This document shows, piece by piece, positions 51,944 to 63,605 of a DNA stretch of 64,000 nt. The stretch lies in NCBI RefSeq assembly GCF_018342475.1, contig NZ_JAEMUD010000004.1:62001-126000 (forward strand), in the 5' to 3' direction. The notes below the pieces were generated by a model. It ran no database searches and was not told the origin of the DNA. It saw only the letters and a program-made list of their open reading frames with translations. Every line of letters begins with the position of its first letter. The stretch's first letter is position 1. Both the position numbers and the translations under genes were made by a program. This DNA is from Parachlamydia sp. AcF125. Lineage in GTDB: Bacteria; Chlamydiota; Chlamydiia; Chlamydiales; Parachlamydiaceae.

Positions 51944-51986
51944 AGAGACAGCTTTAAGCCCTTATTTTTGAACCTTGGAGATTCGC

Positions 51987-53171
51987 ATGGCCGATTGGAA
52001 TATTCAGCAAGGACTCTCTGAAAGCCGGATCAATGTGACGCTAAAGGCAATGGAAAATGTCAAGCAAGAAACGCAACAAGAGCTTGCTGCAGAGCGGGCA
52101 GATAGTAACCTAGCGTTTCAGGAAGCACAAAAGGAAATTACCAATCCTTTCGCCGCCCGCCTATCTAAAAAAGAGAAACCTCTTGCCGCTCAACGCGGCC
52201 GTATACAAAAGTCGGGAAAAATGGGGGAAAAAGCAGAGAAGTTGCTTCCCCTTCAAGCGATCAAAGACACCGCCGGGCAATTCCAGGGAAGAAATCCAGA
52301 GCTTAAAGCTCAGATCCTCGTTCTCTTAAGAGAACAAATTAAACCGGATGATTCTAAAGAAGATATTTTACGCAAGATTTTGGAATTTTATCCCGACGTT
52401 TCCTTGGCAGACGAAGCGCTTGAATTCCTCCTTGAAACAACCGACGGAGAGCTCTACCAAAAAATCAAAGAGCTTAAAGAACAGTTTAATAAGGATAATG
52501 AGCGTGAAATTGCTGCTGGACGAAATATTAGCGCACAAGCGCGTCAAGCTGCAGACGCAGGCTTAGGAACCCCTACAACCTTAAGAGATATGTACCGAGA
52601 TATTACGGGTACGCCTCGAGACTCTACTACCCTATTTCAAGAACTCTCCCAACGTTATCCTTTCAACGAACTTAAAAAGGTGGTTTCTTTTTTATTACAC
52701 TCCCTGGGAAGTGATTTAAAATCTAAAGGCCCCTCAATTGCTCGTGGGCAATTGCATCGACTTATCACGGAAACCCGCTCTCTTCAAGCCATTTTAGGCG
52801 TTTATCGCTTCTTCAAAGGCCGCATGCATCTTATGCATAGTTTATTTAGCAAAGAGGGATTAGACTTCCCCGAACAGTTGACTTTCGAGATGATGGCCAA
52901 ACAATTCATGTCGCTAGCTGCTGAACGTTACCCCTCAGCGGATAAAGTTTTACAAAGGGCCGTTAAATTGGGGATTGAAGATTGGATTTTAGCAAAAATT
53001 ATTGCTTTCAGCCAATTTCGGGATGCAGTTCGGGAAGTTGCCATGCACCAAATTTATAAATCGCTTCAACACCGCGATGAACTCCTCTTAGCTATTATTG
53101 AGGCTTTAGAAGACTTAGAAGACGAGTTAGAAGAGGAAGAAGAAAAAGAAGAAGAAGAGGATAAGCAATAA
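51987..53171 (+). CDS. copN: T3SS gatekeeper CopN (SctW, YopN/TyeA family)
   Basis: CopN is the plug and gatekeeper that holds back effector release, and in Chlamydia it is itself secreted into the host. The 394-residue protein has the HrpJ/YopN-like helical N-terminal half and a TyeA-like C-terminal half (about 270-375). It ends in a very acidic Glu run. The ATG at 51987 has GGAG 7 nt upstream; a TTG 12 nt earlier is less likely. Its position between sctV and an scc1-like chaperone matches Chlamydia exactly and supports the assignment more than sequence identity alone. Confidence 0.92.
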   Translation: MADWNIQQGLSESRINVTLKAMENVKQETQQELAAERADSNLAFQEAQKEITNPFAARLSKKEKPLAAQRGRIQKSGKMGEKAEKLLPLQAIKDTAGQFQGRNPELKAQILVLLREQIKPDDSKEDILRKILEFYPDVSLADEALEFLLETTDGELYQKIKELKEQFNKDNEREIAAGRNISAQARQAADAGLGTPTTLRDMYRDITGTPRDSTTLFQELSQRYPFNELKKVVSFLLHSLGSDLKSKGPSIARGQLHRLITETRSLQAILGVYRFFKGRMHLMHSLFSKEGLDFPEQLTFEMMAKQFMSLAAERYPSADKVLQRAVKLGIEDWILAKIIAFSQFRDAVREVAMHQIYKSLQHRDELLLAIIEALEDLEDELEEEEEKEEEEDKQ

Positions 53172-53199
53172 AAAACTCCAACGGTTATTGAGGTGTGTT

Positions 53200-53670
53200 A
53201 TGGTATCCGATCTTTTTGATGCTTTACTTGCCGAAGTGGGGAAAGAACTGCACATAGGCGATCTATACGCCGATCGCAACCACTCTTGCCTGATTAAATT
53301 TAAAGAAGGTGTCTCTATCCAAATTGAAAGAGATGCACCTGGAGAGCGGTTAATAGTGGGAACCTCCATCGGGTCAATCCCTCCCAGTAAATTTCGGGAA
53401 AATGTCTTCCGAGAAGCCCTTAAATCCAATGGGTTGCCAGAACCTCGCATAGGAACTTTTGCTTATAGCAAGCAATCAGATCAACTCATCCTTTTTGGTA
53501 CACTCCCTATGCAAGATCTCACCGGAGAAAAAATCATCGCTTTCCTTATGCCTTTTAAAGAAAAAGCCATTCTTTGGAAAAACGCTGTCGAAAGAGGGGA
53601 TATTCCTTCCATTTTAGGAGCATCTAGCTTTTCCAGTGGAGGGGGCGGCATGTTTGGTCTTAGGCCGTAG
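53200..53670 (+). CDS. scc1: CesT-family T3SS chaperone (Scc1-like)
   Basis: This is a small type III chaperone that, by position, should bind CopN. The 156-residue product has the CesT/SycE alpha-beta layout: N-terminal helix DLFDALLAEVGKEL, strand SCLIKFKEGVSIQIER, and a central strand block ending LILFGTLPM. It ends with a Gly-rich tail GGGGMFGLRP that is longer than usual. ATG 53200 is used because GAGGTG precedes it. It is the last gene of the T3SS unit; Scc1 in Chlamydia works with Scc4, which is not seen here. Confidence 0.85.
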   Translation: MVSDLFDALLAEVGKELHIGDLYADRNHSCLIKFKEGVSIQIERDAPGERLIVGTSIGSIPPSKFRENVFREALKSNGLPEPRIGTFAYSKQSDQLILFGTLPMQDLTGEKIIAFLMPFKEKAILWKNAVERGDIPSILGASSFSSGGGGMFGLRP

Positions 53671-53848
53671 CGGCACCGTCTAGTCGACAGCCTAAACTTT
53701 GAGTTTTATGCAAAAAGATGCACAGAAATGGGGGGACCTCAACCATAGGATTTGTTGCATAAAAAAGGTAACTGTTGCTTTTCTTCAAAATAGCTTAACC
53801 AGCCAGCTAAAAGGGTCTGAAAATCAACAAGAAAAAACCAAGCCCGGG

Positions 53849-53877
53849 TTGACAGCAAAAATTCCTAAAATTATAGT
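53849..53877 (+). promoter_or_regulatory. Promoter of the ACP-ligase-SDR-AAC(3)-peptidase unit
   Basis: A perfect TTGACA, 17-nt spacer and TATAGT lie between scc1 and the carrier-protein gene. The transcript start falls near 53884, about 28 nt before the ATG at 53912. This makes the five following genes a separate transcription unit and rules out the long upstream extension of the carrier-protein frame. Confidence 0.75.
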
Positions 53878-53911
53878 GCCATATACTCAGTTAATGTCAG
53901 AGGGAGCTGCA

Positions 53912-54154
53912 ATGCCGTCGTCACAAACAATCGAATTGGTCATCCAAACTTTATTAGAGGTTATGCAAGAGCAACAAAAGTCCCCTTCTTCTTTAAAGCC
54001 AGATACCCGAATCTTAGCAGATACTTCCCTCGATTCTCTCGATCTGGCAATTGCCGTAGTAAAATTGGAAGAAAAATTTGGCAAGGATCCATTTAAAAAT
54101 GGGTTTATCCCTTTTTCTACCGTTGAGGAATTAGCAAAGCTTTATGACCTCTGA
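53912..54154 (+). CDS. Stand-alone acyl carrier protein
   Basis: This is an 80-residue carrier protein. It has the phosphopantetheine attachment site in TSLDSLDLAIAVVKLEEKF (Ser of DSL), four expected helices and an acidic character. It is an extra carrier, distinct in context from the fatty-acid AcpP. The ATG at 53912 is selected because AGGGAG lies 5 nt upstream and a promoter sits just before it. It overlaps the ligase gene by 11 nt, which implies coupled synthesis and that the two proteins work together. Confidence 0.88.
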   Translation: MPSSQTIELVIQTLLEVMQEQQKSPSSLKPDTRILADTSLDSLDLAIAVVKLEEKFGKDPFKNGFIPFSTVEELAKLYDL

Positions 54155-55406
54155 TTTTCTCTTTTTACCTGACCAAACCGTTTCATTAAAGACGTTTGAA
54201 GAAAATGTTCTCAAGCATAAGGCTCTTTTCAGCCATCATTCTACCATTTTAGTTAGAACTTCAAATATTTTATCCCTTTTCGCTTCTATCATTGCCGCAA
54301 GAGAGCTTCAAATTTCTCTCTATTTATCTCCTTTAGTTATTCGCGAGACGCAGATCGAAAGGTTATTACACGAATGGCCGGTTTCCCTTTATTTAAGCGA
54401 GGATAATTCCATTGAATTTTCTCGCCCAGAAACAGAAACTCCTGCACCGCATTTAGGGATTTTTACTTCCGGTACACTTGGCGAGCCCAAAATTGCCTTA
54501 CATAGATGGGATGCTATCCAAGCTCCTTCACACCTTGTTCCATCCTATCTCTACCAAAAAACCTGGTTATTGAGCTATGCCCCCTGGTCTTATGCCGGGC
54601 TACAAGTCTTTTTTTCGGCGTTAAATAGCCAGGGGAGTTTGTATTATGACGATCATCATTTTGAGAAGATCGCAAAAGGGATGTTAGAGCATCAAGTCTC
54701 CATTATTTCCGCAACTCCCACATTTTGGAGGATGCTAATAGCCGCGTGGCCGCCCCTTATTAAGCCACCTAAGCTCTTACAAGCCACCCTGGGAGGAGAA
54801 ATTGTCGATCAACAAACGATCGACCTCATTGGGGCCTTCTTTCATCCCCAACGTCTAACCCATATCTATGCCTCTACAGAAGCGGGAAGCGCCATTGTAG
54901 TGTCAGATCGAGATGCGGGCTTTCCACTTTCATTTTTAAATCAAAATGAAAAAAAAGGAGCTCTCTTACGCATTACTGAGGAAAATGAATTAGAAGTATT
55001 AGCTCCTCAGGGAATGGACGGCTATCTAAATACCTCAAGCGTGCATGATCAATGGATCCCCACAGGAGATTTAGTGGAGATCGAACGAGATCGCGTTTAT
55101 TTTGTCGGGCGAAAAGATGGTCGCATCAATAGCGGAGGGCGAAAAATTTCACCAGAAGAAGTAGAGCAAGCCATCAATAGTCTTAAAGATGTAGAAGATA
55201 GCCTAGTGTATGCGAGAAAAAGCCCGATCGTCGGCTCTTTAATCGTGGCAGATGTGAAAATGCGGTCATCTAAAAAATTTGACTCCCCAGCAATCAAACA
55301 AGAACTAAGAAAAATTTTAGAGGAATATAAAATTCCCCATCTCATTCGGAGGGTAGACCATTTTGCCATCTCTAGTAACGGAAAAAAAATCAGAGGTTTC
55401 CTCTAA
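54144..55406 (+). CDS. Compact ANL-superfamily adenylating ligase
   Basis: This is an AMP-forming acid ligase, expected to activate a carboxylic (or amino) acid and load it on the adjacent carrier. The core motifs are present: P-loop TSGTLGEPK (about residue 111), YASTEAG, PTGDL, the hinge FVGRKDGRINSGGRKISPEE and the C-terminal Lys in NGKKIRGFL. At 420 residues it is shorter than most family members (about 500-550), mainly in the N-terminal subdomain. MenE-like acyl ligases are the closest in general form. The substrate cannot be read from the sequence. Confidence 0.87.
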   Translation: MTSDFLFLPDQTVSLKTFEENVLKHKALFSHHSTILVRTSNILSLFASIIAARELQISLYLSPLVIRETQIERLLHEWPVSLYLSEDNSIEFSRPETETPAPHLGIFTSGTLGEPKIALHRWDAIQAPSHLVPSYLYQKTWLLSYAPWSYAGLQVFFSALNSQGSLYYDDHHFEKIAKGMLEHQVSIISATPTFWRMLIAAWPPLIKPPKLLQATLGGEIVDQQTIDLIGAFFHPQRLTHIYASTEAGSAIVVSDRDAGFPLSFLNQNEKKGALLRITEENELEVLAPQGMDGYLNTSSVHDQWIPTGDLVEIERDRVYFVGRKDGRINSGGRKISPEEVEQAINSLKDVEDSLVYARKSPIVGSLIVADVKMRSSKKFDSPAIKQELRKILEEYKIPHLIRRVDHFAISSNGKKIRGFL

Positions 55407-56127
55407 ACATCTGATCCTCTCAGGAGGTTCCAAAGGTTTAGGGCTCGCTTTATCCCAATATTTGCTAAATCGAGGCTATAAAGTCAGTGCCTTTAGTCGC
55501 CATTTAACCCCTGAGGTCGAGCATTTACAAAATTTTTACCCCAATCACTACCATTTTGCCACTGTCGATAACACCTCCCCTGAGCAGCTTCAACAATTTT
55601 GTGAACGGGCGATTTCTCGCCAAGGAAGGATTTATGGAGTGATCAATAACGCTGCCGTGGCTATTGACGGCGTCTTTGCCACTCTGCCTGAAATTGAAAT
55701 CGAAAAGATGGTAGCTGTTAACTTAACAGGAGCCTTGCTATTAACACGCTTATGCCTGCGCCACATGCTTGTCTGCCAAGTTCCGGGTAGAATTCTTTCC
55801 ATCAGCTCTGTCGTAGGAACTCGAGGAGCAAAAGGATTGGCGGTTTACTCCTCCACAAAATCGGCCTTAGAAGGGATGGCACGCAGTTTAGCCAGAGAGG
55901 TCGGTTCTAAACAGATCACCGTCAACGTCATTGCCCCTGGATATATGCTCACAGACCTTTCCTCCTCTCTTTCGCCTGAGCAGCAACAAACCATTGTGCG
56001 AAGAACTCCACTGGGAAGGCTAGCTGAGTTTGAAGATATCGCTCCTCTTGTCGAATTTTTGCTATCTGAAAAAGGAAGCTTTATTACCGGCCAAACAATC
56101 GCAGTGGATGGCGGACTTTCAGTTTAA
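55363..56127 (+). CDS. Short-chain dehydrogenase/reductase (FabG-like)
   Basis: This is an NAD(P)-dependent oxidoreductase of the classical SDR family, 254 residues. It has the cofactor loop GGSKGLG (21-27), the NNAA motif, the catalytic Ser in SISSVVG, and YSSTK (Tyr162, Lys166). The C-terminal VDGG ending is typical of FabG. The start appears to be TTG at 55363 with GGAGGG 9 nt upstream, which overlaps the ligase gene by 44 nt. A reduction of a carrier-bound intermediate is inferred from its neighbours. Confidence 0.88.
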   Translation: MPSLVTEKKSEVSSKHLILSGGSKGLGLALSQYLLNRGYKVSAFSRHLTPEVEHLQNFYPNHYHFATVDNTSPEQLQQFCERAISRQGRIYGVINNAAVAIDGVFATLPEIEIEKMVAVNLTGALLLTRLCLRHMLVCQVPGRILSISSVVGTRGAKGLAVYSSTKSALEGMARSLAREVGSKQITVNVIAPGYMLTDLSSSLSPEQQQTIVRRTPLGRLAEFEDIAPLVEFLLSEKGSFITGQTIAVDGGLSV

Positions 56128-56138
56128 AGGAAAATTTT

Positions 56139-56960
56139 ATGACACAGCTGAACAATGAAACAATGCAAAAGGGATTAAAACAGCTTGGCATAAAAGAAGG
56201 CGATGTGGTTCTTGTCCACAGTGATTTGCTACGTTTAGGAATTCCTGAGCAAGCCAGAAACCGTGAATCCATCTTAAATTTTTATCTTCGCGCTTTTCAA
56301 AACGTGCTAGGTGAAAAAGGAACGATCGCTGTTCCCGCCTATTTTTATGAGTATGCCCGCTATGGCATCCCCTTTGATACTGAGCTTTCCCCCGTCTCCA
56401 AATCTTTAGGGGCGTTCAGCGCCCACATTTGCACTTTACCGGGAAAAGTACGCAGCACTAATCCCTTGCAAAGCATTGCGGCCTTAGGGCCTCACGCCGA
56501 GTTCATCGCAGGCAGCAATTCTCTTAGCGGCTATGGCGTCAATTCTCCTTGGCATCGTTTAAGAATGTTGAACGCCAAACTGGTTTTTATAGGGATTGGA
56601 ATGGAAACAATGACCTATGTCCACCATCTTGAACAAGAAGTGGGCGTACCCCACCTCTACTTTAAGGTATATCCTTACCCCATTACGCGAGGAGGTAATC
56701 CAATCCCGGGGAATCCTGTAAGCGCTGTGCGCTATTTGAATTATGGCATTGAGTATGACTTAAAACCTTTTGAAAGCCATCTTTTACGTACAGGGTTAGC
56801 CCGCTCAGTAGCTGTAGGAAAAGGAAATATCTTATCTGTCTCGGCTGAAGATGCCTACCAAGCAGGGATTAAATATTTAGGAAATAACATTTACGCATTT
56901 CTGAAAGCCCCTCCCCAATTTATTGCAGGGCAGATCCCCTGTGATGGGATCCCCAAATAA
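56139..56960 (+). CDS. AAC(3)-family N-acetyltransferase-like protein
   Basis: This 273-residue protein belongs to the aminoglycoside 3-N-acetyltransferase (Antibiotic_NAT) family. It has VVLVHSDLLRLG near the N terminus, the TIAVPAYFYEY segment, and the GYGVNSPWHRL motif with the later MTYVHHLEQEVGVPH His cluster. In biosynthetic settings such proteins acylate amino groups of sugars or peptides and need not give drug resistance. AAAGGA precedes the ATG; gaps to both neighbours are 11 nt. With its carrier, ligase and SDR neighbours, an acyl-transfer step is more likely than resistance (inference). Confidence 0.86.
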   Translation: MTQLNNETMQKGLKQLGIKEGDVVLVHSDLLRLGIPEQARNRESILNFYLRAFQNVLGEKGTIAVPAYFYEYARYGIPFDTELSPVSKSLGAFSAHICTLPGKVRSTNPLQSIAALGPHAEFIAGSNSLSGYGVNSPWHRLRMLNAKLVFIGIGMETMTYVHHLEQEVGVPHLYFKVYPYPITRGGNPIPGNPVSAVRYLNYGIEYDLKPFESHLLRTGLARSVAVGKGNILSVSAEDAYQAGIKYLGNNIYAFLKAPPQFIAGQIPCDGIPK

Positions 56961-56971
56961 CGGAAACAACC

Positions 56972-58255
56972 ATGCCCCACTCACTAGCCTACCAACTGAT
57001 TTGCGAACTTTGGCAAAAAAATCGCAATTTTTGTTCAACCGATTATGACTATTGTCTCGATTATATTCATTCTTTTATCCCTTTAAAAATTTACACTTAC
57101 ACCCCCCATGAAATTTTCAATGGCTGGGTCATTCCCCCCAAATGGGATTTGGTAAAGGGAGAAATTTGGAAAGAGGGACAATGCCTTTTTCAATCGAAAA
57201 CCCCTCTAAATGTCATCGGATTATCCTCTAGCTTTTGTGGAACCATTTCTTTGGAGGAGTTGAAAAAACATTTACATTTTGATGCTAGATTCCCACAAGC
57301 CGTTCCCTACCACTTCAGGCAAAATTATCGCCCCTGGAATAGGGATTGGGGATTTTGTGTCACGCAAGATTTCTATCACTCATTAACCGAAGGGCTGTAT
57401 GAAGTTAAGCTCTTCACCCAAGAGTCAGAAGGGTATTTAAAAGTTGCCGAACATACCCATGTGGGAGAAAATCCTGAAACCTTTGTGTTTGTGGCCCACC
57501 TCGACCATGGAGGCATGGCTAACGACGATCTAGCAGGAGTCGCAGTAGGAGTGGAGCTATTTCATCGCCTTCTTCCTAAAAAAACAAAATTCTCCTATAA
57601 GCTCGTGCTCGTTCAAGAGATTGTGGGATCAGCCTATTATCTAGGAAAAACACCTGAGACGAAAAATCATGTGCTCGAATCCATCTTTTTAGAGATGCTA
57701 GGATCAAACACGCCCCTGGCTCTGCAACACTCCCATGAGGGAAAAAGTCAGTTAGAGAACACTTTAGCAAAGCTCCTTAAAAATAAAGCCGGCTTTCGGG
57801 AAGGTCCTTTTCGCAGTGTGATTTGCAATGATGAGATGATTTGGGAAAGCTATGGAATTCCTATGTCGAGTATTTCTCGCTTTCCTTATCCTGAATACCA
57901 TTCCGATTTAGATAATCTTTCTATCATTAATCAAGAAGCTTTAGATGAATCGGTTTCTGTTCTCCTAGAAACAATCGAAACGCTTGATCGGCAAACTTTT
58001 ATGCGCAAAAAATTTTCTGGCGTTATCGCTACTGCCCATCCCGATTACAATCTTTATGTGGAGCCTGGCCAACGCGCCTTTGGGATAGCTATAGAGGAAG
58101 ATCAGAAAAAACTCCGCCTTTTAATGGATTTGCTTCCCATTATGCCTCAAGAATGCTTTATCGAACAAATTGCCGCAAAAATTCAAGCCCGTGTAGACCT
58201 CGTGTTCCAATATTTACAGCAGTGGGAAGAAAAGGGATTAATTGAGCTTATTTAA
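56972..58255 (+). CDS. DUF4910-type zinc aminopeptidase-like protein
   Basis: The 427-residue product resembles the DUF4910 proteins, which have an M28-like aminopeptidase domain and a C-terminal winged helix. Candidate metal ligands are seen in AHLDHGGMANDDLAG (near residue 177-190), VQEIVGS and EYHSDLDNL. The C-terminal 70 residues (MPQECFIEQIAAKIQ..) look like the winged helix. Family members often sit in polysaccharide or natural-product clusters next to AAC(3)-like genes. It is the last gene of the five-gene unit. Whether it cleaves peptides or acts on a conjugate is unknown. Confidence 0.82.
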   Translation: MPHSLAYQLICELWQKNRNFCSTDYDYCLDYIHSFIPLKIYTYTPHEIFNGWVIPPKWDLVKGEIWKEGQCLFQSKTPLNVIGLSSSFCGTISLEELKKHLHFDARFPQAVPYHFRQNYRPWNRDWGFCVTQDFYHSLTEGLYEVKLFTQESEGYLKVAEHTHVGENPETFVFVAHLDHGGMANDDLAGVAVGVELFHRLLPKKTKFSYKLVLVQEIVGSAYYLGKTPETKNHVLESIFLEMLGSNTPLALQHSHEGKSQLENTLAKLLKNKAGFREGPFRSVICNDEMIWESYGIPMSSISRFPYPEYHSDLDNLSIINQEALDESVSVLLETIETLDRQTFMRKKFSGVIATAHPDYNLYVEPGQRAFGIAIEEDQKKLRLLMDLLPIMPQECFIEQIAAKIQARVDLVFQYLQQWEEKGLIELI

Positions 58256-59339: not shown

Positions 59340-62300
59340 CTAGCTAAGCTTGTCTACTTTTTCACGCCACTCTCTAAGCCTGCTAGGTAGCTTTTTTCTT
59401 ATTTCATCGTAGCTAAGCTCTAGGTTGCACCCAGATGAATAAGCTGCTCTTTTGTCAGAAATTTGAATTTGTTGGTTTTGAACATACATGCTATCAGCAG
59501 TAAAGAAACAAAGCTCGGCAACTAGAACAAATGCCTTGCTATCAATTTTTAGAAAAGCATTTCTATCAGCCTTTTTTAAAGCTTGGGCCACAAATTTTTT
59601 GGTCCAAACATCCCCTTCCTCAACAATTTGGATAAGAGCGGTTAACAATTCTTTAGCGAGCTCTCCTCCTTGTTTTGCTACAGCTCCTAGCGCAGAAGCA
59701 GCAGAATTTTTAGCCCTATTATCACCCTTTTTGAGGGCTTGAATGAAAGCAAAGAGTTCTTCTTTAGAAAGCTTCATTCCGTGTATTATCACAGTTCCCA
59801 CTTTGGAAGCAGCAGGATCTCTAGTCCAACTCTCATCTTTTTCAAGGGCTTGAATAATAGAAGCTAGCAATTCTTTAGGAAGTTTCTTTCCTTGCTTTAC
59901 CACAGCTGCTAAAGCCGAAACAGCGGAACCTTGAGCCCCATCCTTACCTTCTCTAGCCAAGCGGATAAGAGCAGATAGTGCTTCTTGAGGAAGTTCTATT
60001 CCTTGCTTTGCCACTGTTCCTAGAGCAGAAGCAGCAAATTCTTGAGCCCAAGCCAAACCTTCCCGCTCTTTAAGAACATGAATAAGAACGTTTAGCGCTT
60101 TTTCAGGAAGAACTCCGCCTTGTTGTACCCCAGCCTCTAGGGCAAAAGCAGCCCCACCTTTAGCCCAATTTTCACCTTCTTTAAGGACATGAATAAGAGC
60201 ATCTAGCGCTTTTTCAGAAAGCATCCCGCCTTCTTTTACGATAGCTCCTAAAGCAAAAGCAATAGAATCGGTGGTCGTCGTACCACTTTCTTTAAGAATA
60301 TTAATGAGAGCATCTAAAGCCTCTTCAGGAAGCTTTCTTCTTTGTTTTGCTACTAATCCTAAAGCATGAGCAGCATAATCTTTACCCCTACCATTACCTT
60401 TTTTGAGAATATCAATGAGAGCAATTAAAGCCTCTTCAGGAAGCTCTTTTCCTTTTTTTATCATATTTCCCAAAGACGAAGCAGCAAAGGGTTTAGCCCA
60501 ATCCTCTCCTTTTTTAAGAACATCGATGAGAACAACTAGTACTTCTTCAGGAAGCTCCTCCCCTTGTTGTACCGCTGCCCCTAGAGCCGAAGCAGCACAA
60601 CCTTTAGCCCAATCCTTGCCTTCTTTGAGAACATGGATGAGAATAGCTAAAGCTTGTTGAGAAAGCTCTTCTTCGCGTTTTGCCATCGTCCCTAGCATAG
60701 AAGCAATAAAAGGTTTAGCCCAATCCTTACCTTCTTTAAGGACATGGATGAAAGCAACTAACAATTCTGGAAGAAGCGTTTCTCCTTGTTTTGCTACCAC
60801 TTCTAGGGCCGAAGCGACCGAAACTCTATCACTCTCTTTACCTTCTTTAAGAACGTCAATGAGAGCAGCTAGCGCTTGTTGTGAAAGCATCCCTCTTTGT
60901 TTTGCTACAACTCCTAACGCCAAAGCAACCGAAGCTTTATCACAACCTTCACCTTTTTTGAGAGCAGCGATGAGAGCAGCTAGCACCTCTTGTGAAAGTA
61001 TCCCTCCTTGTTGTACCACTGCTCCTAGAGACGAAGCAATAAAAGGTTTAGCCCTAATATCGCCTTCTTTAAGAACATCAATAAGGACGGTTAGCGCTTT
61101 TTGAGAAAACGTCCCTCCTTCTTTTCCTATTGCTTCTAGAGCCAAAACAGCCGACACTTTATCCCACTCTTCCCCTTCTTTAAGAACCTTAACGAGAGCA
61201 GCTAGCGCTTCTTGTGAAAGCATCCCTCCTTGTTTTACCAAAGCTCCCAGGGCAAAAGTAGCACAACGCTTAGGCCACTTCTCTCCTTCTTTGAGAACAT
61301 CGATGAGAGCGGTTAGCGCTTCTTGAGGGATCGTCCCCCCTTCTTTTGCCGCAGCGTCTAGGACAGAAGCGGCGTAACCTTTAGCCCAAACATTACCTTC
61401 TTCTAGAACATGAATAAGAGCAGCTATCGCTTTTTTAGGAAGCTCTCCTTGTTCTGCCGCTGCCGTTAGAGCAGAGGCACTCCAATCTTTATCTTTATTC
61501 TCCCCTTCTCTAAAAGTATGGATGAGAGAGACTAGTACTTCTTGAGAAAGCCCGCCCTTTTGCTCCGCTGCTTTTCTTAAAACATTCCTAGCAAGATTTT
61601 CAGCAACACGGCTGTTGTTAGGACCCCTAAGCACCTGTATCACCCATTCTATTATGTTTGGAGTTAGCTTGTGACCTCTACTTACAAGTCTTTCAAGGTT
61701 TCCTAGCATATTTTCAGTTATCTCGGGCTCGGCGAGCAATTCTTCAACAGAATGCACTACTGCGGAATAGCTAAGAAAATCTTTATTACTCAATAATTGG
61801 TCAAATTCTAAACCCAGCCTACAGAGATATTTAATATAATCTTTTAAAAGCTTCACAAAGCCTTTATACTGGCTCACTACACTAGGATTTTGGCATTCTT
61901 CAAAGCACTGTGCAATTAAAGTGAGCTCGTTTCTGACAGCTAAATCATAAGGCCCTGCAAACAAGTCATCAAAGAACTGCTGCAAGGGGTTGGAGTCTAA
62001 ATAAAGCCGATTATTGGAAACAGCAAGGGAAAGGTAGCCGGCGATCATGCGCAAAACTAAGTTATAGCGGGGCTCAAACTTGTACTTTCGCACAAATTGT
62101 TGGCAGGCTTGCCTCTCTTTTTTATTAAGAGTAAGATATTGATTAGCCACTTTTGAAGCAGTTAGAAATTCTTGAAAAGTTAAATGAATAAAATACCCTC
62201 TTTCTTCGGGAATGCGCATAAGCCCGCAATCTGCGAGCTCATTGGATGAGAGCTTGTTACCTCTAAAGCTTTCGATTTCTTGCTTGCTTAGATAAAGGGT

Positions 62301-63605
62301 ATCATTTTTCATAGCAAAATCGGCCATTTCTTCAAAAGCAGTGGCGAATTCAGCCACTTTTGGATTTAGGCGTAGGTTTTTCTCTGCCAGAATTTGCTCC
62401 TTGTTTTGTTCAGGGCTGCCTTGGTCGATTCTTCTCAATATAAACCATTTATACATCCAGCTAATCATCCGTTCATAAATAGCAGTCATTGTAATGGATT
62501 GCTTGGCATCAAACAATTCTGGGTCTTCGTTAAAGAGGCAACACAACAGAGTTAAGTGAAGGGGAATTTGCGCAAGATTTGCAACGTAGGGAGAGTTTTT
62601 TAATAGTTGGCAAAACTTTTCTTTTTTCTCTTCGGCTTTAACTTGTGTAAAGAATCTATCGATATAGCGGCCGATCCCTTTTTTATCAAAGCCTAGAAGT
62701 TCTATCTCGCAAGAGCGGTCAAAAAAGCAGCTTCCAGGTCTTGAGGTAATTAGAATATGGGGAAATAATTCTTTTAGCTCCTTAAAGACTTTAGCGAGGC
62801 TGGAGTTTCCTTGGGCCTCTGAGGAGAGTTCATCATAACCATCCAAAATAAATAGAGTTTTTTTTCGAAAAGCAGCATTATTTATGCAAGCCTCAATCAC
62901 CCTAGGATCAATTTTTCCAGCATATTCCCTAGCTATCAGGCCAGCTGGAGTATAATCCTTATCAGGAGGATATTTCCCTAAAGTGAGGTTTCTCAAAGGA
63001 ATCCAAAAAAGACAAGAAAAAAGGCCTTGCCAAAGCTCCCCTTTTGCCCAGCTATAAGCTATGTAGTGGCATAAGGTACTTTTGCCGCTTCCTGCTGCGC
63101 CTTGGAGGTAAATCCTTTTACGATCTTTTTCTTCAAAGTTTTTGTGTTCGAAGAGCTTTTCAAGCTCAATATTCTGTTTAGGCTCATAGATGGTTTCATA
63201 CGTTGGGATGCGATCATCTTGAATGCGATCAGAATGTTTATCAAGCGCTTGGTCGCGTATTTTTCTTTCTTGATTTTCAATGATCGCTAAACGCACATAA
63301 ATCTCTTCTAAAGGAACTTTAAGTTCCCACTCTTGCTCTGCTTTAATTTTGAAAATAGAAAGGGTTTCCTGAGAAAGGTAATAGTTTTGAAGAGACCTAA
63401 CTAGAAATTGCGGGCTTAGTTTTGCCTGTAACCGTTTTCTAAGCTCTGTCCCTGGCAATCTAGGAACAGGAGCTCCCTGTGGATAAACAACGGTGATAGC
63501 TTGCACATTCAGCTGAGGATTTTGCCCACTTAGCTGGGGATTTTTAACGATAACCTGGGGACTGACAAGCCCATGCTTAGTGAGCAAGTTTGGAGAAAGA
63601 GCCAT
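59340..63605 (-). CDS. NACHT-HEAT repeat protein (5' part frameshifted)
   Basis: This paralogue of the 3564-9236 protein lacks the ankyrin repeats. The 1421 residues from ATG 63605 hold the shared linker (YYLSQETLSIF, LEEIYVRL), a NACHT NTPase with Walker A GAAGSGKST (about 167-175) and Walker B LFILDGYDEL (about 248-257), a helical region, 18 HEAT-like repeats of about 37 residues and the shared C-terminal cap (QISDKRAAYS, LELSYDEIRKKLPS). The frame stays open upstream of this ATG to 63693, and homology to the paralogue continues there (CEHSFEEPFMAL against CEHRFTVSFMAL). The true gene therefore starts further upstream, beyond a break at an A9 run. No ribosome-binding site precedes ATG 63605. 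Confidence 0.85.
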   Translation of the reverse strand: MALSPNLLTKHGLVSPQVIVKNPQLSGQNPQLNVQAITVVYPQGAPVPRLPGTELRKRLQAKLSPQFLVRSLQNYYLSQETLSIFKIKAEQEWELKVPLEEIYVRLAIIENQERKIRDQALDKHSDRIQDDRIPTYETIYEPKQNIELEKLFEHKNFEEKDRKRIYLQGAAGSGKSTLCHYIAYSWAKGELWQGLFSCLFWIPLRNLTLGKYPPDKDYTPAGLIAREYAGKIDPRVIEACINNAAFRKKTLFILDGYDELSSEAQGNSSLAKVFKELKELFPHILITSRPGSCFFDRSCEIELLGFDKKGIGRYIDRFFTQVKAEEKKEKFCQLLKNSPYVANLAQIPLHLTLLCCLFNEDPELFDAKQSITMTAIYERMISWMYKWFILRRIDQGSPEQNKEQILAEKNLRLNPKVAEFATAFEEMADFAMKNDTLYLSKQEIESFRGNKLSSNELADCGLMRIPEERGYFIHLTFQEFLTASKVANQYLTLNKKERQACQQFVRKYKFEPRYNLVLRMIAGYLSLAVSNNRLYLDSNPLQQFFDDLFAGPYDLAVRNELTLIAQCFEECQNPSVVSQYKGFVKLLKDYIKYLCRLGLEFDQLLSNKDFLSYSAVVHSVEELLAEPEITENMLGNLERLVSRGHKLTPNIIEWVIQVLRGPNNSRVAENLARNVLRKAAEQKGGLSQEVLVSLIHTFREGENKDKDWSASALTAAAEQGELPKKAIAALIHVLEEGNVWAKGYAASVLDAAAKEGGTIPQEALTALIDVLKEGEKWPKRCATFALGALVKQGGMLSQEALAALVKVLKEGEEWDKVSAVLALEAIGKEGGTFSQKALTVLIDVLKEGDIRAKPFIASSLGAVVQQGGILSQEVLAALIAALKKGEGCDKASVALALGVVAKQRGMLSQQALAALIDVLKEGKESDRVSVASALEVVAKQGETLLPELLVAFIHVLKEGKDWAKPFIASMLGTMAKREEELSQQALAILIHVLKEGKDWAKGCAASALGAAVQQGEELPEEVLVVLIDVLKKGEDWAKPFAASSLGNMIKKGKELPEEALIALIDILKKGNGRGKDYAAHALGLVAKQRRKLPEEALDALINILKESGTTTTDSIAFALGAIVKEGGMLSEKALDALIHVLKEGENWAKGGAAFALEAGVQQGGVLPEKALNVLIHVLKEREGLAWAQEFAASALGTVAKQGIELPQEALSALIRLAREGKDGAQGSAVSALAAVVKQGKKLPKELLASIIQALEKDESWTRDPAASKVGTVIIHGMKLSKEELFAFIQALKKGDNRAKNSAASALGAVAKQGGELAKELLTALIQIVEEGDVWTKKFVAQALKKADRNAFLKIDSKAFVLVAELCFFTADSMYVQNQQIQISDKRAAYSSGCNLELSYDEIRKKLPSRLREWREKVDKLS
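59545..61550 (-). repeat. 18 tandem repeats of about 111 bp encoding HEAT-like units
   Basis: Each unit encodes about 37 residues of the form LSQEALAALIDVLKEGE plus a second helix with an AASALGAVAKQGG-type end. One unit is two residues longer. The units are more divergent from each other than those at 3825-5846, although the number (18) is the same. Confidence 0.85.

Follow-up and report, generated by a model that had tools for sequence, protein, structure and literature searches.

The 64,000-nucleotide window analyzed here, from Parachlamydia sp. AcF125 (contig NZ_JAEMUD010000004.1, positions 62,001 to 126,000), contains a unit of 5 genes, all on the plus strand at 53912-58255. They encode an acyl carrier protein (ACP), an adenylating ligase, a short-chain dehydrogenase/reductase (SDR), a protein with the fold of aminoglycoside 3-N-acetyltransferases (AAC(3)), and a DUF4910 protein. 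A check of the open reading frames (ORFs) of the window gave the following features.

53849..53877, plus strand: sigma-70-like promoter, TTGACA-17-TATAGT, 11/12 match
53912..54154, plus strand: stand-alone ACP, 80 aa (PF00550), DSLD motif with the modifiable Ser42
54144..55406, plus strand: compact adenylate-forming ligase, 420 aa (PF00501 and PF13193)
55363..56127, plus strand: SDR reductase of the MupS/TmlS lineage by its tree, 254 aa (PF13561/PF00106), best solved relative MupS 4YXF
56139..56960, plus strand: AAC(3)-fold N-acyltransferase, 273 aa (PF02522), METMTYVHHLEQ motif near residue 158
56972..58255, plus strand: DUF4910/DUF2172 metallopeptidase-fold protein, 427 aa (PF16254, PF09940, and PF04389)

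The tight packing described in the initial annotation proved exact, with an 11-nt overlap between the ACP and ligase genes (54144-54154), a 44-nt overlap between the ligase and SDR genes (55363-55406), and 11-nt gaps on either side of the AAC(3)-like gene. The near-perfect promoter assigned to the unit also held up. A single site matching at 11/12 or better is seen on the plus strand, where dinucleotide shuffles of the region give an expectation of 0.02, and the congener (genome G099) retains the site as TTGACA-17-TATATT, differing by one base. The ACP most likely starts at the ATG at 53912, which is preceded by GAGGGAG, and not at the start of the longest ORF; the mechanically listed 151-aa version extends back into DNA that is absent from the congener. 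The TTG start of the SDR at 55363 has GGAGG 10 nt upstream, within the ligase gene. Five codons inward, at 55378-55380, the window has ACG where G099 and G037, a genome from another family, have ATG, and in the window translation may begin at the TTG or, which would be unusual, at this ACG. The GC content of the unit (0.432) is close to that of the window (0.412), and there is thus no sign of recent transfer. Approximately 160 bp between the promoter and the upstream gene for a CesT-type chaperone (53671-53835) are missing in the congener, and 56 bp of this segment recur at 81% identity elsewhere in the host genome (G000:C5:175095); it is possibly a mobile-element remnant.

The first 3 genes form a trio whose motifs are retained. 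The ACP keeps the DSL serine, the attachment residue for phosphopantetheine, as do its counterparts in G099, G075 (same family, other genus), G037, and Azospirillum, and a phosphopantetheinyl transferase gene is present in the host genome. The ligase motifs are intact (FTSGT107, YASTEAG242, TGD307, GRKDGR322, GKK413), and the SDR contains GGSKGLG21, NNAA95, and YSSTK162. Among all PDB sequences, the best match of the SDR is MupS from mupirocin biosynthesis (4YXF, E 6e-53), the sole match below 1e-45. It is only 29% identical to the FabG-like gene of the host, which adjoins the housekeeping ACP on contig C5, and a maximum-likelihood tree split the trio SDRs and MupS from 17 chlamydial FabG-like SDRs with support of 100/100. 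Phylogeny thus places the SDR in the MupS/TmlS lineage and not with FabG. Duplicates of the housekeeping type II fatty acid synthase genes (AcpP/FabG) were rejected as an explanation on the basis of this tree, the separate ACP and FabG-like genes on C5, and equivalog scores, which reach 24.2 for the ACP versus a cut-off of 70.45 for AcpP, and 189.8 for the SDR versus 297.75 for FabG.

A tblastn search of plasmids found the best relatives of the SDR in Azospirillum, Burkholderia, Bradyrhizobium, Haematobacter, and the thiomarinol plasmid pTML1. The SDR relative adjoins a ligase gene and a small, mostly ACP-annotated gene in 7/7 plasmid loci inspected; on pTML1 the row is ligase-SDR-ACP-polyketide synthase, and the Bradyrhizobium and Burkholderia trios adjoin large multidomain synthase genes. 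In the ligase comparison, TmlQ of pTML1 was used as a stand-in for MupQ. The ligase of the window forms a subclade with the trio ligases of Azospirillum and Rhodobacterales (100/99), within a larger clade that includes TmlQ, the Bradyrhizobium and Burkholderia trio ligases, and a ligase from the chlamydial genome G063 (99/97), versus 18 other AMP ligases. A whole-GTDB scan with the single ligase query returned only 2 distant ligases (Cytobacillus and Bacteroidetes), so the spread of the system beyond Chlamydiota is known here from plasmid records alone. The G063 ligase belongs to an independent ACP-SDR-ligase trio (G063:C76 7133-9487, minus strand; L135); its identity to ligases of the TmlQ/Burkholderia lineage is 35-42%, and what appears to be an asparagine-synthase-like gene follows further on.

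MupQ, described as an adenylation domain, the reductase MupS, and MacpD convert malonyl-CoA to 3-hydroxypropionyl-ACP, while the primer of thiomarinol is 4-hydroxybutanoyl (PMC10098928). These starter-unit cassettes, MupQ-MupS-MacpD and TmlQ-TmlS-TacpD of pTML1, share 3 protein types with our unit, the stand-alone ACP included. The SDRs are 40-41% identical and fall in one clade (MupS representing them in the tree), as do the ligases, also with support. They differ in gene order and in that AAC(3)-fold and DUF4910 genes follow here. Because of this kinship of SDR and ligase with the mupirocin/thiomarinol cassette, the trio of the window most likely makes some short hydroxyacyl-ACP.

The AAC(3)-fold protein has 5HT0, 6MB4, and FrbF among its relatives; by fold, it is related to AAC(3) enzymes and to FrbF. 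The AlphaFold model of the DUF4910 protein (pLDDT 89.7) was matched best by Foldseek to 3K9T (E 1.5e-36) and then to M28 aminopeptidases. Its His179, Asp185, and His310 correspond to His189, Asp195, and His324 of CA_C2195, the most conserved residues according to Das et al. 2014 (PMC4000134). The chlamydial group carries an acid, Glu237 (FLEMLG), at a position where 3K9T-like copies have none, and chlamydial DUF4910 could therefore bind a second metal or act as a hydrolase, which we regard only as a lead. Das et al. proposed that DUF4910 acts in the synthesis of modified surface carbohydrates, by transacylation or deacylation, and reported an aminosugar N-acetyltransferase and an ACP among its neighbors (PMC4000134). 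The CA_C2195 loci (PDB 3K9T) resemble our unit in this combination and in the 3 shared metal-site residues; they differ in holding nucleotidyltransferase, epimerase, and glycosyltransferase genes, which are absent beside the unit, and no MupS-type trio is described for them in the text consulted.

A phylum-wide search of 234 Chlamydiota genomes found close relatives of the ligase in just 4: the host, its congener G099 (80% identity), G075 (approximately 60%), and G037 (approximately 45%). All 5 genes are present in G099 (80-84% identity), in the contiguous order SctV-CopN-CesT-ACP-LIG-SDR-AAC-DUF4910, and in G075 (59-69%), in unchanged order at an unrelated genomic site. In G037 the row is DUF4910-ACP-LIG-SDR and runs to the contig end, with a distant DUF4910 (27-29%). 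The five-gene synteny search proposed in the initial annotation thus finds the order kept in G099 and G075, and whereas that annotation knew of no described chlamydial counterpart, there are 2 other full units, one partial one, and the orthologues beside LuxE/LuxC genes treated below. From this synteny it follows that the unit moves as a block and that its type III secretion system (T3SS) neighbors do not move with it. Compared with the congener, all 5 genes have dN of 0.09-0.13 and dS of 1.1-3.3, which indicates that all are maintained as proteins under purifying selection.

Orthologues of DUF4910 (53-58% identity) occur in G091, G087, G062, G044, and G055, and those of the AAC(3)-like gene (49-56%) in G091, G087, G062 and, as pieces, G068; in G044 and G055 the DUF4910 orthologue is present but a close AAC(3)-like one is missing. 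In G087 a LuxE-LuxC fusion is followed by the AAC(3)-like gene, DUF4910, and an MFS transporter. The row in G091 is AMP-ligase-LuxE-LuxC-AAC, with DUF4910 on a separate contig, and in G062 a GNAT-like gene, LuxC, and DUF4910 face LuxE, FeADH, an AMP-ligase, and the AAC(3)-like gene. LuxE is found in 3/234 chlamydial genomes, and these are the same 3 AAC(3)/DUF4910 carriers (hypergeometric P 1.7e-5); the host genome has no LuxE. LuxE and LuxC are an acyl-activating and acyl-reducing pair, as the ligase, ACP, and SDR would be. Since LuxE/LuxC replaces the trio beside the orthologues, the AAC(3)-like and DUF4910 genes appear tied to acyl chemistry. The simplest reading, we infer, is a constant transfer end (AAC(3)-like protein plus DUF4910) with 2 alternative acyl-making ends. 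The scattering of genes among relatives, named in the initial annotation as an argument against a pathway, does occur in part for the AAC(3)-like and DUF4910 genes, yet 3 such genomes keep LuxE/LuxC partners.

Glycan loci recur around relatives of the unit. Of the trios nearest by ligase outside the chlamydiae, those of Azospirillum sit between pseI/glycosyltransferase and flagellin genes, and those of Rhodobacterales adjoin glycosyltransferase or DegT genes in polysaccharide-type loci. On plasmids, DUF4910 genes accompany those for NeuB, DegT, and glycosyltransferases. The pseB-pseC-FlmD-pseI-pseF cluster of Tritonibacter contains DUF4910 paired with AAC(3), between pseC and FlmD/pseI. The host genome encodes a PseC-like aminotransferase (422.9 bits versus a cut-off of 423.5) and an operon of a cytidylyltransferase-like gene, a NeuB/PseI-type synthase extended by 180 aa at its N terminus, and a HAD phosphatase (L107 7401-10355, G000:C2); NeuB-family matches above cut-off occur in 86/234 chlamydial genomes. 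It also has a cluster of WecB, a Gfo-Idh-type protein, DegT, and a UDP-sugar dehydrogenase (L089 5687-10912, G000:C1), resembling a diamino-uronate pathway. The host genome thus encodes routes to amino sugars.

Several known systems bear a likeness to the unit. The ACP-ligase-SDR-KASIII loci in the flagellin/pseudaminate regions of Azospirillum (L077, L080) share the ACP-ligase-SDR order and the glycan context, with ligases 34-35% and SDRs 46% identical to those of the window. They differ in having KASIII and an alpha/beta hydrolase where the unit has the AAC(3)-like and DUF4910 genes, and in adjoining a flagellin gene. Flagellar glycosylation islands of Aeromonas and Enterobacteriaceae (PMC7874193, PMC4875605) contain ACP, FabG, AMP-synthetase, LuxE, and LuxC; the enzyme classes are shared by description, and their LuxE/LuxC variant parallels the chlamydial relatives, whereas the host unit has no LuxE. 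In Pseudomonas syringae, mutant and mass spectrometry data show that deletion of the reductase gene vioR abolishes N-(3-hydroxy-1-oxobutyl) viosamine (PMC3927599). That island (vioS, vioR, acp, vioB) combines an ACP, a reductase, and an N-acyltransferase, VioB (213 aa, annotated as a dTDP-viosamine acetyltransferase), to make an N-hydroxyacyl amino sugar, as we propose for our unit; it differs in that the acyl chain is ascribed to the KASIII VioS and no ligase is among its 7 genes (PMC3927599). Vibrio cholerae O1, in which tetronate is attached to the amine of perosamine and wbeL acts in tetronate synthesis (PMC3441752), offers a possible parallel that we treat only as a lead.

We consider that the unit has an even chance of being an N-acylation module, in which a carrier-protein acyl supply and an N-acyltransferase decorate an amino sugar. 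The host phosphopantetheinyl transferase would convert the ACP to its holo form at Ser42. The ligase would adenylate a small carboxylate and load it onto the ACP, by analogy with MupQ/TmlQ a short acid like malonyl-CoA or a related half-thioester, and the MupS-like SDR would reduce the loaded unit, giving a hydroxyacyl-ACP with a short chain, for instance 3-hydroxypropionyl-ACP. From this carrier the AAC(3)-fold enzyme would pass the hydroxyacyl moiety to a free amine, which most likely belongs to an amino sugar bound for a surface glycan, and DUF4910 could trim, proofread, or transacylate the amide so formed or a competing one. In this scheme we infer which acyl group is used, what accepts it, and what DUF4910 does. 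The initial annotation is supported in treating the 5 genes as one unit, in its order of activation, loading, reduction, and transfer, and in its link to glycan loci. The chemistry is more defined than it stated: with an SDR of the MupS/TmlS lineage and a ligase grouping with TmlQ, the acyl unit is probably the part that is reduced, as happens when 3-hydroxypropionyl-ACP is made for mupirocin. The association of DUF4910 with an aminosugar acyltransferase and an ACP in carbohydrate loci had been published in 2014 (PMC4000134). A more specific proposal is that chlamydiae exchange acyl modules, of the mupirocin type (malonyl-CoA to 3-hydroxypropionyl-ACP) or the LuxE/LuxC type, around the same AAC(3)-fold N-acyltransferase and a DUF4910 enzyme, the latter in a new catalytic role, to produce N-(hydroxyacyl) surface amino sugars; this we offer tentatively and regard as rather unlikely in its full form.

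Several points weigh against an amino-sugar N-acylation module. No sugar or glycosyltransferase gene lies in or adjoining the unit in the window, nor are the sugar-nucleotide and glycosyltransferase genes of DUF4910-type operons found in or directly beside it; the host amino-sugar genes are elsewhere. Acetyl-CoA is the usual acyl donor of characterized AAC(3)-fold enzymes, and we assume acyl transfer from the ACP by this one. Identity between the ligase and TmlQ is only 22-26%. The ligase tree samples other families narrowly, and one chlamydial trio ligase in it, that of G063, falls within the TmlQ side. A ketosynthase of the MmpF/TmpF type is absent after the trio, with the AAC(3)-like gene in its place, unlike in mupirocin, thiomarinol, and Azospirillum, where a ketosynthase follows.

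The product of these 5 enzymes could instead be soluble and small, a hydroxyacyl or fatty amide that is set free within the inclusion and is no surface sugar. The closest trio relatives to have been studied biochemically, those of mupirocin and thiomarinol, serve antibiotics, the Bradyrhizobium and Burkholderia trios lie next to large multidomain synthases, and the window unit has no adjacent sugar gene. However, polyketide synthase or nonribosomal peptide synthetase (NRPS), exporter, and resistance genes are absent from the unit, its DUF4910 and AAC(3) partners are repeatedly seen in glycan clusters, and the trios nearest by ligase are in flagellin and polysaccharide-type loci, and we think this outcome unlikely. 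We give a similarly low probability to the unit being 2 independent neighboring modules, a trio that supplies acyl-ACP for lipid or fatty acid use and an AAC(3)-DUF4910 pair that modifies or recycles an unrelated amine. This would account for the orthologues without a trio in G087, G091, and G062, for DUF4910 alone in G044 and G055, and for the existence of other trios without AAC(3)/DUF4910 genes, but proteins that are approximately 60% identical are still encoded in the same order, at sites that differ between genomes, and in 3 of the trio-less genomes LuxE/LuxC is next to or near the AAC(3)/DUF4910 genes.

The PF02522 match and the 27-29% identity of the AAC(3)-like protein to AAC(3)-IVa genes might suggest aminoglycoside resistance through AAC(3), with the other genes as passengers. 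A plasmid tblastn with this protein was dominated by AAC(3)-IV genes. The score of the protein, 95.9 bits, is far below the AAC_3 cut-off of 270, as it is below every AAC(3) cut-off, the other AAC(3) models scoring lower still, and the gene is conserved alongside acyl-ACP genes. Resistance was rejected on these scores and gene context and is scarcely credible. The unit could also serve the adjacent T3SS, for example by acylating a secreted protein. Upstream of it, outside the pathway, lie the following neighbors.

51975..53670, plus strand: T3SS CopN and CesT-type chaperone

SctV, identified by position and conservation, is also upstream, and the unit adjoins SctV-CopN-CesT in the window species and the congener. 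The linkage is confined to this genus: the surroundings of the unit in G075 and G037 contain no recognized T3SS gene, and the unit has its own promoter-like site. A T3SS partnership was therefore rejected beyond the genus, service to the T3SS is very improbable overall, and the adjacency, presented as a feature of the locus in the initial annotation, looks incidental.

The classes of all components are known, as are most of their pairwise associations; the full combination, the chlamydial host, and the LuxE/LuxC alternative were not found described, and nothing direct was found in the literature on 3-hydroxypropanoyl amino sugars or on such clusters in chlamydiae. If the N-acylation module is real, chlamydiae would have an exchangeable pathway dedicated to unusual N-acyl sugars, and surface variation of these intracellular bacteria would become testable. 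DUF4910, which has no known reaction, would gain a substrate context of acyl-ACP, AAC(3)-fold transferase, and amino sugar, and the mupirocin starter cassette would be a general hydroxyacyl donor beyond polyketide priming.

A few other genes in the region and in the compared genomes deserve mention. On the minus strand 3' of the unit, at 59340-63605, lies a gene whose 1421-aa product combines a P-loop region (GAAGSGKST) with numerous degenerate helical repeats. Another host locus (L091 1769-4681, G000:C3) encodes a 970-aa protein with a PP-binding domain. In the congener, ORFs of 1212, 2242, and 3132 aa at G099:C5 ~206600-231900 match the C-terminal part of the ligase and possibly constitute an NRPS cluster.

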